Of a stretch of DNA of 37,645 bases, positions 339 through 37,645 are shown piece after piece. The DNA lies in NCBI GenBank assembly GCA_919901855.1, contig CAKKQC010000057.1, positions 1 through 37,645 on the forward strand, in the 5' to 3' direction. Origin of the DNA: a bacterium (GTDB taxonomy: Bacteria > Oederibacteriota > CAKKQC01). A program made the position numbers and the translations under genes. How positions within the stretch are numbered: the first letter of the stretch is position 1; each line of letters begins with the position of its first letter. The notes beneath the pieces were generated by a model that was not told where the DNA came from, searched no databases, and saw only the letters and a list, made by a program, of their open reading frames with translations.

Positions 339-2131
339 CCAAATATCACCTGTGAAGTTGGTGTCGATCGTGGAAGTCTGGTCAAATACTGTGACCCGTT
401 GTCGTGCGGCCCAACCGTGGATGAACTCGTGCCAGCTGACGTTCCGCCGCCGCTCTGCCCGGCCGCGGATGCACCGCCGCCGCTCGCCGGGCCCGCCAGC
501 GGTCCGGTCGTCGGCCCCGCGCCCGCGCCCCAGAGCACGGGAACCGCGCGCGCCTGCGCGTCCGTCTCGGCCGCCGCCGTCGCCTGCAGCGTCACCCGGT
601 ACACGCCCGGCTCCGCCGGCGCGCCCGTCCGGTTACGGCCGTCCCAGATCAGCGACCCCGCGCCCGCCGCCGCCGACACCGTCCGCTCGTCCGTGACCGC
701 GCGGCCCTCGGCGTCCACGACCACCCACGTGATCCGCGCCGTCTCCCGCAGGTCGAACGTGACCGTCAGCGTCCCCGTCCTCGGGTCCAGCGGCAGAGGT
801 CCCACTGCCAGCTTGCGCAGCAGCGGCTCGCCCTTCGCCAGCGTCACTTCCACGCTCTTCCCGCTCTCCGCCCCGTTCGCGGCGATCGCCGTCACCTGGT
901 ACCCGACCTCGCCCGCCACGAGCGGCTCGCCGAATCCCGGCGTCCCCACCGTGCCCAGCATGGCCACGCTCTGACCCCGGCGACGCCACACCCGGTACGC
1001 GCTGATCGGCGACCCGTTCGGCGAAGTCGCCGCCCACGTCAACCGGCTGTTCTTCCCGTCCTTGCCCAGCGCGAGCTGGTCCGGCGCGTCAGGCGCCGGC
1101 AGGAGCGATCCCACCCACGTCCCCGCCGTCACCAGCACCCGCCCGCCCGACACTCCCACCCCGTCGATCACGCCGTGGCCCGGCGCCGCGCTCCACAGCT
1201 TCGCGCCGTCGGTGAGCCGCAGCCCCACGACCGTGCCCTGCCGCGTCCCCACGTACACGACGTCGCCGGCGCCCGACACCGCGTTCGGCGTGCCCGCGAG
1301 CACCGTCTCCCAGACCTTGCCGCCGTCGGCGCGCGCGAGCAGCTTGACGCCCCCGTCCACGCTCGCCGCCACCACCCCGGCCTTCGTCACCGCGATCGGC
1401 GCCCACGCCGGCTTCAGCAGCTTCGCCGTCCACCGCACTCCACCAGCCCGGTTCACGGCCACGACCGCGTCGCCCAGCGCCACGTACGCTCCATCATCAG
1501 CCAACACCGGGACCGACCCGATCGCGCTGCCGAGATCCGTCGTGAACACCTTCGCGCCGTTTGCCGGATTCAGCCCCACGAGGCTCGACCCCGATCCGAT
1601 CAGCACGAGCGCGGCGTCCGCCGCCGGCAGTGTCAGCGGGCTGCCGAGCGCCACCTGCCACATCGCCTTACCGTCGAGCTGGTTGAACGCGTACAGCGTC
1701 CCCAGCGACGTCGCCACGTACACGACGTTCTGCCCCACCTGCGGCGTGTGGATCAGCGTCCCGTCCACGCGCTGCGTCCACCGCAGCGCCCCGGAGAGGG
1801 CGTCGTAGCACTTGACCTCGCGCAGATCACGCGGCTCGTCGTGCTTCCACGCCACGCTCCCGTCGGAAAGCTTCAGCGCCCAGACCTGGAGCGTCTCCGT
1901 GCACAGGTACGCGTGCCCGAGCAGCCCCGACACGATCGGCGCGCCCTTGAGCGGAGTCGGCAGCGTCGCCTCCCACTGGAGCGCGAACGGCGGCGCGAGA
2001 GCCTCTCCCGCGACGTAGCTCATCCGCGACAGCCCCGCGTACGCGGTCGTCCAGTCTTCGGCACCACATGGCGCGACAATGAGCGCGAGGACACCAGCCG
2101 CCAAGGCAGGCCAAGCGGTACGGGGTTTCAT
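335..2131 (-). CDS. Secreted PQQ-like beta-propeller protein with Fn3-like and FlgD-type Ig domains
   Basis: Predicted 598 aa. The ATG at 2131 is preferred over an upstream in-frame start (2293) because it begins a signal peptide: basic MKPR, then a hydrophobic stretch to about residue 20 and a probable cleavage after CGA. It also lies about 30 bp below a good promoter. Residues ~30-360 contain repeated strands of the type 'V.A.D...G...W' (for example LYAFNQLDGKAMW, VVGLRLTDGAKLW), typical of PQQ-binding-like eight-bladed propellers. A fibronectin-III-like segment follows (SPISAYRVWRR), then a FlgD-like Ig fold (LIWDGRNRTGAPAEPGVYRVTL) and a low-complexity Gly/Ser/Ala tail. It probably acts outside the cytoplasmic membrane; these propellers often serve as scaffolds rather than dehydrogenases, and no catalytic residues can be assigned. 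The last ~35 codons probably lie past a frameshift, so the annotated C-terminus may be wrong. Confidence 0.75.
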   Translation of the reverse strand: MKPRTAWPALAAGVLALIVAPCGAEDWTTAYAGLSRMSYVAGEALAPPFALQWEATLPTPLKGAPIVSGLLGHAYLCTETLQVWALKLSDGSVAWKHDEPRDLREVKCYDALSGALRWTQRVDGTLIHTPQVGQNVVYVATSLGTLYAFNQLDGKAMWQVALGSPLTLPAADAALVLIGSGSSLVGLNPANGAKVFTTDLGSAIGSVPVLADDGAYVALGDAVVAVNRAGGVRWTAKLLKPAWAPIAVTKAGVVAASVDGGVKLLARADGGKVWETVLAGTPNAVSGAGDVVYVGTRQGTVVGLRLTDGAKLWSAAPGHGVIDGVGVSGGRVLVTAGTWVGSLLPAPDAPDQLALGKDGKNSRLTWAATSPNGSPISAYRVWRRRGQSVAMLGTVGTPGFGEPLVAGEVGYQVTAIAANGAESGKSVEVTLAKGEPLLRKLAVGPLPLDPRTGTLTVTFDLRETARITWVVVDAEGRAVTDERTVSAAAGAGSLIWDGRNRTGAPAEPGVYRVTLQATAAAETDAQARAVPVLWGAGAGPTTGPLAGPASGGGASAAGQSGGGTSAGTSSSTVGPHDNGSQYLTRLPRSTPTSQVIFG

Positions 2132-2169
2132 GTTCTTCAGAATCGTCACTGCCAGTATGATGCGCCAAG

Positions 2170-2197
2170 AGTAGACCATCGGCAGGCAGCGTGTCAA
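2170..2197 (-). promoter_or_regulatory. Probable sigma70-type promoter of the beta-propeller gene
   Basis: On the minus strand a perfect -35 TTGACA (2197-2192) is followed after 16 bp by TCTACT (2175-2170), four of six matches to the -10 consensus. Transcription would start near 2163, leaving a leader of about 30 nt before the ATG at 2131. This suggests the propeller gene is expressed independently of the upstream modE operon. Confidence 0.5.
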
Positions 2198-2289
2198 GTA
2201 GGCACTTCGGACCACGTGGCTGCCTGTGCTGCCCTCCGGCCTGGATAACGCGGCGCGTTCGAGCCGCTCACGCCACACATGGGAGTGGA

Positions 2290-2325
2290 GCAAGGCCTTG
2301 ACCGGGCCCTACCGGAAGGCCTTGC
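2290..2325. repeat. 10-bp inverted repeat over the modE stop codon
   Basis: GCAAGGCCTT (2290-2299) and AAGGCCTTGC (2316-2325) are perfect inverted repeats around a 16-nt loop that contains the modE TAG (2309-2311). There is no T-run on the minus-strand side, so this is not a classical intrinsic terminator. It could act as a 3'-end stabilising hairpin for the long fdh/moco transcript. Confidence 0.4.
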
Positions 2326-2701
2326 GGAACCTCCGGTCGACGGCGGCATCGATGCCGGCGCGGAAGCTCCGGTAGCGGGCCAGGAGGGTGCGCGCGAGCG
2401 CCGTGAGCTCGGAGCGGCCGCCGCCCTTCCCGCCGGCGCGGCGAACCACGAGCTCACAGCCGAGCCGGCGCTCCATCTCCTCGATCTTCCCCCACGCCGC
2501 GCGGTAGGACATGCCCATCTGCGAAGCGGCGGCGCGAAGGCTTCCCGTCTTCCCGACCAACTCGAGCAGCCGCGCCTTGCCGTCCCCGAATACCGGCTTG
2601 CCGTCCACCTCGACCCAGACCTTGCTCTTCGCCTTGAGGCGAGGGAGAGGGGATCTCCCCGGTTTCGTGCCGACCGCTCGCGCCCCGGGCCCCGGACTCA
2701 C
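2309..2701 (-). CDS. modE: ModE-type LysR-like winged-helix regulator (DNA-binding domain only)
   Basis: Predicted 130 aa. The GTG at 2701 is chosen because its GTGA overlaps the TGA of the upstream Fic gene by 4 bp; a longer start at 2812 would overlap that gene by more than 100 bp. After a short Pro/Gly-rich leader, the family signature starts at LKAKSKVWVEVDGKPVFGDGKARLL and continues through the helix-turn-helix (LVGKTGSLRAAASQMGMSYRAAW) and wing (KIEEMERRLGCELVVRRAGGKGGG). This is the N-terminal domain of molybdate-responsive ModE. The two C-terminal Mop (molybdate-binding) domains of E. coli ModE (262 aa) are absent, as in many short ModE homologues, so direct molybdate sensing is not evident. 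Its place at the end of a formate dehydrogenase/molybdopterin operon makes control of molybdenum genes the likely role. No modABC transporter is present in the window. Confidence 0.85.
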   Translation of the reverse strand: MSPGPGARAVGTKPGRSPLPRLKAKSKVWVEVDGKPVFGDGKARLLELVGKTGSLRAAASQMGMSYRAAWGKIEEMERRLGCELVVRRAGGKGGGRSELTALARTLLARYRSFRAGIDAAVDRRFRKAFR

Positions 2702-3822
2702 GGCGCCTTTGCCGGTGGATTGCCGATAAATTGCCGATACTTTGCCGATAACCTGTAAGCCCTCCCGCGGTTGGACGTGTCGGTCGGAACGAGCCAGCCG
2801 TCGCCTGCCCATTTCTTCAGCAATAACCTGGCCATCCGGGAGGATAGGCCCAGAACCCCCGCGGCATCATTTGTCGTGATACGGTCCTGCCGGACGAACA
2901 TGGACAGAACGGTCCTCGCCCTGTGTTCCATCCGGCGCAGGAGCTCCGGCTCGGCCCGCACGCCCTTCTTCGCCATCTTCACCGTCTCGTCTCTCACCCG
3001 CGCGAACACTTCAGCCAGCAACCCGGTGAAGTACCCGACCCATGGAGTCAGATCGGCGCCCGCCCTGCCGTCGTAGTAATTGTGACGCTGATGCACCTCG
3101 AGCGCGGCGTAGTAGCCGGCCAGATCCCTCGCGTGATGTTCCTCCATCGAGAAGAAGCCATTCAGGCCGTAGCCGCCCTTCTGAAGGATGAAGGTGGCCA
3201 GGAGACGAGCGGTCCTGCCATTCCCGTCGTAGTAGGGATGAACGGTGACGAACTGATAGTGCACGAGTGCCGCGATGACGGGAACGGGAACGCGGTCTCC
3301 TTCCGCGCGGCGAACCCAACGTGCCAGCCCGGCCATGAGGCCGGGGACGTCCCTTGCCTGGGGCGGCAGATAGACGACGGCACCCGAGGCCGAGTCCCGG
3401 ATGACGTTCTGCCCCCCGCGATACGGCGATGATCCGGCCCGGGGGCCTCGTTCCACGATGGCGTGCAGTTTCCTGACCAGGTCTTCACTGAACACGACTT
3501 TCCTCGTCACCCAATTCTCCACGCGCAGAAGCGCATCCCAGTAGTTACTGACTTCGCTGACATCCCGTTCCCTGCCGTGGAACGTCCTCTTGCGCCTCTC
3601 GACAACTTCCCGGGCTTCCCTGAGGGAAAGCTTGTTCCCCTCGATTTGAGTCGAGAAGTGTGTCGATCTGAGCCGGGCCTTGTGACGCAACTCGGCTTCA
3701 ACGGCGGGCGACAAGGGGGTATTCTCGACGACCGCTCGGACGGCCTCGATGTCCATGAGTGTGCGGGCTATGCTGGGACTGATGGTATACGCGGGCTTCC
3801 ACACATCCCCCCGGTCCTTCAT
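2698..3822 (-). CDS. Fic family protein with N-terminal inhibitory motif and C-terminal winged helix
   Basis: Predicted 374 aa. Fic enzymes usually transfer AMP from ATP to target proteins. The canonical loop is intact: HPYYDGNGRTAR at residues ~195-206, with catalytic His195. The N-terminal STQIEGN (~57-63) fits the inhibitory (S/T)xxxE(G/N) motif, whose Glu obstructs ATP binding, so the protein is probably auto-inhibited. The last ~100 residues contain a helix-turn-helix-like segment (TTNDAAGVLGLSSRMARLLLKKWAGDGWLV), as in Fic/DUF4172-type single-chain proteins. The ATG at 3822 follows GGGAG by about 9 nt; a TTG at 3843 is an alternative. It lies 26 bp after fdhA and overlaps modE by 4 bp, so it is probably cotranscribed with formate dehydrogenase genes, an unusual setting. 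The target is unknown. A stand-alone toxin seems less likely given the built-in inhibitory motif. Confidence 0.85.
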   Translation of the reverse strand: MKDRGDVWKPAYTISPSIARTLMDIEAVRAVVENTPLSPAVEAELRHKARLRSTHFSTQIEGNKLSLREAREVVERRKRTFHGRERDVSEVSNYWDALLRVENWVTRKVVFSEDLVRKLHAIVERGPRAGSSPYRGGQNVIRDSASGAVVYLPPQARDVPGLMAGLARWVRRAEGDRVPVPVIAALVHYQFVTVHPYYDGNGRTARLLATFILQKGGYGLNGFFSMEEHHARDLAGYYAALEVHQRHNYYDGRAGADLTPWVGYFTGLLAEVFARVRDETVKMAKKGVRAEPELLRRMEHRARTVLSMFVRQDRITTNDAAGVLGLSSRMARLLLKKWAGDGWLVPTDTSNRGRAYRLSAKYRQFIGNPPAKAP

Positions 3823-35696: not shown

Positions 35697-36539
35697 ATGG
35701 ACGTCTGGTATGTCGGCGTGCTGGCCTTCCGCGAACAGGTCCTTATGGTACGCGCCAAGACCGCCGAGGGAGCCGGCAAGTGGTCGTTGCCGCGGGAGTT
35801 CGTGCGGCACGGCGAGAAGGAGGACGACGCCATCATTCTCACCCTCCGGCAGGATACTGGGTTCGAGACGGTTCCCAATCGGTTCCTCTACGAGACCGAG
35901 CCGACTGGGGACGGCAGTCTCACTCGCTGCTACCTTCTCGTCTTCGATCGGGCGGAAGGAGCCCCGCGAGACGCCGCCGATCTGAACGTCGCCCTGACCA
36001 ACGGCAGCCCGACTAGAGAATACCGCTGGTTCCCGCTCGGCAAGGCCCGCGAGGATCCCGAGGTCGCCCGCGCAATCCCCCTCCTGGCATGCAAGGTGGA
36101 CAATTGGCCCGCGGCCCATCCACACAACTGGGTCAGCATCCCTGACAAGGAGCGGGAGCTGGAGCATCGCACCCGCCGCGCACAGAGGTACTTCACGATC
36201 CCGGAGCCGCCCGAACCGGAACCGGACCCGCTATACCAGGCGCTGTTCAAGATCGCAGATCACATACCTGAACGGCATGGGCTGGTATGGGATTTCGTGC
36301 GCCGATTCGGCGGCCACCCCTCCGAGCGCGTCCGTGTCGCCCTCGCCGTTTGTCTGCTCGAAGACCTGCTGCGTGACCACTTCGACCGGATCTTCCCGAA
36401 GGTCGAGCTTCTAGCCGGGCAAGATCCGGCCTTCGCCGACTGCTTCTGGCACTGCTGGGATGTTGGCCAGGCCTCCCTGCCGGGCAATCTGGAGCGCTTC
36501 CGCGCTCTCCAAGCGAGACTTGGCCGCAACCCCGAATGA
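35697..36539 (+). CDS. Nudix-like fold protein with C-terminal helical domain, function unknown
   Basis: Predicted 280 aa. The first ~140 residues resemble a Nudix hydrolase: strand VGVLAFREQVLMVRAKTA, then GKWSLPREFVRHGEKEDDAIILTLRQDTGFE and later YRWFPLGKA. The Nudix box (Gx5Ex7REUxEExGU) is degraded: the REUxEE portion reads RQDTGF, so metal-dependent hydrolysis is doubtful and a sensor or binding role is possible. Residues ~185-275 form an unrelated, probably alpha-helical domain (HGLVWDFVRRFGGHPSERVRVALAVCLLEDLLRDHFDRIF) that I cannot name. It is convergent with the putative defence genes at 36602-37645, ending 62 bp from them, and may belong to the same accessory island. No clear promoter is visible. 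Confidence 0.65.
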   Translation: MDVWYVGVLAFREQVLMVRAKTAEGAGKWSLPREFVRHGEKEDDAIILTLRQDTGFETVPNRFLYETEPTGDGSLTRCYLLVFDRAEGAPRDAADLNVALTNGSPTREYRWFPLGKAREDPEVARAIPLLACKVDNWPAAHPHNWVSIPDKERELEHRTRRAQRYFTIPEPPEPEPDPLYQALFKIADHIPERHGLVWDFVRRFGGHPSERVRVALAVCLLEDLLRDHFDRIFPKVELLAGQDPAFADCFWHCWDVGQASLPGNLERFRALQARLGRNPE

Positions 36540-36601: not shown

Positions 36602-37429
36602 CTACTTTCTTGGACGCCGCCGCTTCCGCCCGGGGGCGCTCTTCCTACCTACTCGCCAAGCACGATCGATCCCGTCCCGCATCAGCCAGTGTAACCACCC
36701 TGGCAGAGGCGGAGCTTTCGCAAGTTCACAATCGTACCGAGCCATGACCAAGACAGCATCCGGCACACATAGCGAAGGTCTGTTGACAATGAACCCAGCC
36801 CGCTCGTAGACCGCTTGGGATTCTGCGGCAAGACGCGCATAGGAAGAATAGAAGCTGGCGAACGTGCCTGCCGCGAAGAAGACGACAAGCGCAGAGAAGA
36901 CTGCCGGGACAGCTTCCCCATCTCCGCCGAGACCAAGCCTAAGAGCAGTTACGGCGCCGCACACGGCAATCACCGTACCTATGACAACGACCGCGCCGTA
37001 GAGTAGCGAAGCAACCTGCGCCAGCTTGCCCGTGTAGAAGGCGCTCTCTTGGACGATCTCTGCAACTCGCCGCCATCCAAAGGGTAGTCGCGACCTGAAG
37101 TAGCTCTCTCGATTCCTCGGTCCCAGGTTGCCCAAAATACTGGGCTCATCGCGGAATAGGACCCTAGCCTCGTCGGCACCTGCTCCTTTCCCAAGTCCGT
37201 CCCAGAGTACCAACTGCCGCCTAAGCCTCTCTCCTTCGGAATAGAGCCTCTGCGCCTTAAGCCTCAGGAAGTAGACGCCAACAGGAGCCGCGATGACAAG
37301 CACGCTCACGACGATAAGGCCCCATTCCGAGGGTGAAGCGTATTGAGCCACCGTGGCGACCAGCACGACCGCCTGGATCGTCAGGATCACACGCCAGTAC
37401 GTTTTCGATGCCGCGTGTCGCCTTGACAT
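36602..37429 (-). CDS. Four-TM membrane protein, probable S-4TM/SLATT-like CBASS effector
   Basis: Predicted 275 aa. Two hydrophobic segments near the N-terminus (~12-31 and 37-55) and two in the middle (~138-164 and 175-195) flank a polar region containing RESYFRSRLPFGWRRVAEIVQESAFYTGKLAQ. The C-terminus has DCELAKAPPLPGWLHWLMRDGIDRAW and a strongly basic tail. This pattern resembles 4TM proteins encoded next to CD-NTases, thought to form pores when a cyclic nucleotide binds, but I assign it from memory of the pattern, not by alignment. The ATG at 37429 is used; a GTG at 37447 (281 aa) is possible. It starts about 20 bp after the stop of the upstream gene, so the two are probably cotranscribed. 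Confidence 0.6.
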   Translation of the reverse strand: MSRRHAASKTYWRVILTIQAVVLVATVAQYASPSEWGLIVVSVLVIAAPVGVYFLRLKAQRLYSEGERLRRQLVLWDGLGKGAGADEARVLFRDEPSILGNLGPRNRESYFRSRLPFGWRRVAEIVQESAFYTGKLAQVASLLYGAVVVIGTVIAVCGAVTALRLGLGGDGEAVPAVFSALVVFFAAGTFASFYSSYARLAAESQAVYERAGFIVNRPSLCVPDAVLVMARYDCELAKAPPLPGWLHWLMRDGIDRAWRVGRKSAPGRKRRRPRK

Positions 37430-37449
37430 TCCGCCAACTAGGTCCACGT

Positions 37450-37645
37450 CTATGCCTTCGGGAAGTAGTTGTTGAAGACAATGTCCCACTGGCGATAGGC
37501 CTCTTCCAGATCCCCGCCCGCCTCCGCGTTGACCGCGGCAGCGGCATGGTCCAGCGAGGAGCCGACAGTTTGAAGGGCACGTTCGCGCATGTGTGGGGTG
37601 ACGCGAAAAGAATTCCGGTTGAGGTAGCCGAGCAGGGCTGACATA
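37450..37645 (-). CDS. C-terminal end of a probable CD-NTase (SMODS nucleotidyltransferase), cut by the window edge
   Basis: About 65 codons are visible, ending at TAG 37450-37452. The sequence RALQTVGSSLDHAAAAVNAEAGGDLEEAYRQWDIVFNNYFPKA looks like the typical C-terminus of CD-NTases, where a helix with alternating Ala is followed by 'A...W..vF...FP'. An ATG at 37644 is available, but a free-standing 64-aa protein with this ending is less likely than a truncated long gene. CD-NTases make cyclic di- or trinucleotides that activate the effector encoded next to them. The catalytic GS..DxD motif would lie outside the window, so the assignment is provisional. Confidence 0.5.
   Translation of the reverse strand, partial: MSALLGYLNRNSFRVTPHMRERALQTVGSSLDHAAAAVNAEAGGDLEEAYRQWDIVFNNYFPKA

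Follow-up and report, generated by a model that had tools for sequence, protein, structure and literature searches.

Transmembrane (TM) effectors have been described as common killers in cyclic-oligonucleotide-based anti-phage signalling systems (CBASS) (PMC10419184), and the closest described counterpart of the locus reported here is type I CBASS with a four-TM (4TM) effector (PADLOC model PDLC00724). The locus lies at the right edge of a stretch of 37,645 nucleotides from a bacterium of the Oederibacteriota lineage (GenBank contig CAKKQC010000057.1; hereafter the window), which is the whole of contig C57 in a 4.68-Mb genome that is assembled in 91 contigs and 93% complete. With this type I CBASS it shares the cyclase-then-4TM order, the placement of both genes on one strand, a short gap between them and matches to both models; it differs in that only the last 46 codons of the cyclase, a cGAS/DncV-like nucleotidyltransferase (CD-NTase), are present, the gene being seemingly interrupted by an insertion element. 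As both open reading frames (ORFs) have PADLOC matches and a CD-NTase stands beside the effector in most distant relatives (7/8 loci, see below), we interpret the locus as the right (3') end of a type I-like CBASS operon whose cyclase was probably split by a multicopy insertion element and which is most likely inactive, a reading to which we assign a probability of roughly 0.78.

The cyclase tail and the four-TM protein

On the minus strand, an open ORF of 64 codons enters from the right edge of the window and ends with a stop codon at 37450. Over its full length, this ORF matched the C-termini of several PADLOC oligonucleotide cyclases (best match PDLC00823, E = 9.1e-7). Codons 1 to 18 sit within a 54-bp repeat and are not cyclase sequence; the remaining peptide of 46 amino acids, compared alone, still matched PDLC00776 (E = 2.5e-6; positions 242-285 of 287) and PDLC00823 (E = 3.3e-6; positions 240-283 of 285), and the match is thus independent of the repeat. 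The tail aligns to the C-termini of CD-NTases from Nostoc and Deinococcus and carries a W..VF...FP motif; a PDPKxLGxxxD block that lies a few residues before the tail in intact relatives is absent from the window, with repeat sequence in its place. Judged from these alignments, the cyclase homology ends where the repeat begins, and the CD-NTase-like part is limited to the last 46 codons plus the stop (37450..37590, minus strand). An earlier, sequence-only reading of this DNA had assigned about the last 65 codons to a CD-NTase; this holds for the terminal 46 and fails for the repeat-derived codons 1 to 18.

The effector gene (36602..37429, same strand) begins exactly 20 bp past this stop (gap at 37430..37449, from the sequence and the ORF coordinates), in agreement with the spacing of about 20 bp noted before. 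Translation from the ATG at 37429 gives 275 amino acids, GTG starts at 37447 or 37489 also being possible. We placed the gene in the CBASS 4TM family from its match to the PADLOC '4TM' effector model PDLC00724 (E = 5.9e-15; residues 29-281 of the longer ORF against profile positions 26-275 of 287), its hydropathy and the neighbourhoods of its homologues. Kyte-Doolittle hydropathy revealed four hydrophobic TM segments arranged as two pairs, and the reading frame is open and undamaged. The ESAFYTGKLAQ region and the DCELAKAPPLPGW tail, which had been singled out as distinctive, are both present and fall in columns conserved across the homologues in the alignment. The suspicion that this is a divergent effector was also borne out, as the protein matches the PADLOC 4TM model and yet shares only about 19-27% identity with the recovered homologues.

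The relation of the protein to the Pfam family S_4TM (PF18159) appears to be indirect, judging from profile comparisons; it is not filed under that family, and the Deinococcus homologue scored 22.0 bits against PF18159, under the gathering cut-off of 26.9. Structure prediction, which had been proposed as a check, was of little use, since the predicted structures were all-helical but of low confidence (mean predicted local distance difference test scores, pLDDT, of 57.5 and 62.5) and too poor for a structure search. A sequence search of solved structures with the 4TM protein found no relative, and a literature search for papers on the 4TM effector, or on UG9 with TM partners, gave nothing on point.

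Gene neighbourhoods of effector homologues

Homologues were reached through a weak match on a Nostoc plasmid, followed by searches with that Nostoc protein and an alignment of three homologues, and neighbouring cyclases were identified with a profile of four CD-NTases. Among the eight distant homologous loci with readable neighbours, seven have a CD-NTase beside the effector, i.e., those from Nostoc (L013), two Deinococcus plasmids (L014 and L015, the latter of Deinococcus sp. KNUC1210), Nonomuraea (L016), Mesorhizobium (L017), Scytonema (L055) and a second Nostoc (L056); one further locus (L057), cut off upstream of the effector, was left out of this count. The cyclase-then-effector order of the window is found in six of these seven loci, L017 being reversed and L014 having a cyclase on each side. 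At L014 (L014:2929-5871; Deinococcus aquaticus plasmid pDATS02), the S-4TM effector lies between two different CD-NTases encoded on its own strand, both of which carry a GSF...DDID motif.

At the exception (L012), no cyclase is in view; instead, the gene of a UG9-type reverse transcriptase (1978-3462; PADLOC RT_UG9_small, E = 3.8e-119) follows 3 bp after that of the 4TM homologue (L012:1129-1974; G315:C168). No second case of a 4TM gene with UG9 was detected in 289 further genomes. We raise only tentatively, and with more doubt than confidence, the idea that unrelated triggers (CD-NTases and, at L012, a UG9 reverse transcriptase) may share the 4TM family as a plug-in module for killing, which in the present genome might have been retained after cyclase loss; if this were true, the same membrane effector might respond to different signals.

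A search of 44 further genomes from this phylum gave no relative of the effector. Close 4TM relatives were likewise not found in 97 other genomes, in viral contigs or phages, or in genome contigs when a single sequence was used as the query; plasmids gave weak matches only. Six homologues, once aligned, proved too divergent for the alignment to serve as a query.

The repeat at the contig edge and competing explanations

The sequence beyond the cyclase tail begins with TGTGGGGTGACGCGAAAAG at 37592 and runs off the contig (37592..37645, no strand assigned). The same 52-54 bp terminate contigs C66, C18, C89 and C6 and never occur inside contigs of this genome, and in all five contigs that carry this end (end A) the unrelated flanks begin at the identical base, right after ...CACCCCACA. 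A second end (end B), which read inward begins TGTGGGGTG as the start of an imperfect inverted repeat, closes contigs C38, C68 and C90; the first nine bases of ends A and B are identical (TGTGGGGTG), with a further partial match beyond them. The ends are thus multicopy (n = 5 for A and n = 3 for B), carry terminal inverted repeats and break at a fixed boundary, as in an insertion sequence. As multicopy ends with imperfect terminal inverted repeats explain the contig-end pattern, we infer that it stems from several copies of one insertion element, as these would look when assembled from short reads. The ends of this element (TGTGGGGTGACGCGAAAAG... for A and TGTGGGGTGTCCAGAAAG... for B), whose interior is unassembled, break the assembly at eight contig ends. 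Searches of 58 other genomes, of viral contigs and of plasmids did not recover the repeat pattern.

Because the homology to CD-NTases stops at the repeat boundary, the contig is most simply read as breaking within a repeat that interrupts the cyclase gene, rather than simply inside the cyclase gene. The GS...DxD motifs that the truncated upstream gene had been expected to reveal are not in the window, and searches of the 93%-complete genome with PDLC00823, the Deinococcus CD-NTase and PF18144 did not find the missing catalytic half; other matches were weak, and the one that was read, on C76, was rejected as a minimal nucleotidyltransferase of 120 amino acids (MNT type) rather than a CD-NTase. 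None of the B flanks starts by repeating two or more bases of the A flank of C57 (...GCATG), and the contigs that could hold the other side of the insertion (C38, C68 and C90) show no cyclase and no matching target duplication; the other half of the cyclase is therefore probably unbinned or deleted.

Several observations weigh against the interpretation of the locus as an operon with a split cyclase. The catalytic core is not on the contig, so that the label "cyclase" derives from 46 C-terminal residues, and in an assembly of 91 contigs the rest of the gene may sit in an unbinned contig. Neither a transposase nor a target-site duplication was seen, the assembly holding only the two ends of the element. 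The 4TM protein had no match to S_4TM up to E = 10, and Pfam and NCBIfam gave no match above cut-off for either ORF. Moreover, the assembly may be a mixture of cells, some of which may carry the cyclase gene without the element or an intact operon. In a rival explanation that we consider unlikely, the living organism has a complete, working operon, and the repeat is an assembly artefact or is present in some cells only. The open, undamaged 4TM frame would fit it, as would the fragmented assembly and the position of the contig end at a repeat, a common place for false joins by assemblers. However, five independent flanks switch at the same base, which together with the matching second end is the pattern expected for copies of a real element, and conservation of the cyclase stops at that base as well.

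The adjacency at L012 to a UG9-type reverse transcriptase instead of a cyclase could also mean that the 4TM protein is the effector of another defence system, e.g., one based on such a reverse transcriptase, and that the cyclase-like tail reflects chance similarity. We regard this as highly improbable, as several cyclase models match the tail (E about 1e-6), its position and orientation are those expected of a cyclase, and a CD-NTase is found at seven of the eight readable loci. Least probable of all is a pair unrelated to defence, made up of an ordinary membrane protein and the tail of an unrelated gene; the lack of Pfam and NCBIfam matches above cut-off would be consistent with it, but not the two adjacent ORFs with PADLOC matches and conserved neighbourhoods. 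Overall, these data support the two-gene CBASS pair of the sequence-only reading, through the PADLOC models and the neighbourhoods of relatives, but leave a functional system doubtful, since the upstream gene is probably interrupted by an element end.

In an intact copy of the operon, phage infection would activate the CD-NTase, the activated enzyme would make a cyclic oligonucleotide, and the 4TM protein, judging by homology, would in response open or disrupt the inner membrane and thereby kill the cell. Here, a multicopy element has probably inserted into the cyclase gene, 46 codons ahead of the stop, so that the catalytic part is cut off from both the C-terminal helix and the effector gene; as the cyclase is split, the operon is probably dead.

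Genomic setting and comparison with known systems

No ancillary gene of the Cap2/Cap3 or HORMA/TRIP13 kind lies on the 3' side of the effector gene, where only a convergent NUDIX gene (35697-36539) and then folD follow, the region upstream of the cyclase being off the contig. GC content drops from about 0.65-0.70 to 0.58-0.60 toward the contig edge, and GC content at third codon positions (GC3) is 0.64 in the 4TM effector gene and reaches 0.74 in the cyclase tail, as compared to 0.94 in folD and CODH. The shift in GC and GC3, together with the lack of effector relatives in the same-phylum genomes, supports a recent acquisition. The proposal of an inserted defence island is favoured by base composition only; the right-hand part of the window showed no further defence genes, and the NUDIX neighbour has a close copy elsewhere in the genome with no effector beside it. 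This copy (89% identical; G000:C25:19409-20233), along with the finding of no copies in 58 other genomes, points to the recent duplication of a gene specific to this lineage. Cap16 bears a NUDIX domain (PMC10419184); as a CBASS partner, the NUDIX gene of the window was rejected given its convergent orientation and the C25 copy without a neighbouring effector. The NUDIX protein carries a C-terminal extension weakly matching DUF6869.

These results add a divergent 4TM CBASS effector to a lineage with none other among the 44 same-phylum genomes sampled. They also provide a case in which an insertion element has probably disrupted a CBASS operon, in keeping with the view that genes for suicidal defence come and go rapidly.

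Compared to the S-4TM putative pore-forming effector of D. aquaticus pDATS02 (WP_273991352.1), the window effector is homologous over the alignable length, with about 24% identity, and both are found beside CD-NTase sequence; the Deinococcus locus differs in having two CD-NTases flanking its single effector. With Cap15 and other CBASS membrane effectors (PMC10419184), the window protein would have in common the logic of a membrane-damaging effector; set beside Cap15, it has four predicted TM helices, and its low-confidence models contain helix only. Overall, the locus belongs to a known system, as a divergent member that has probably been inactivated, and leaves existing knowledge of CBASS unchanged.
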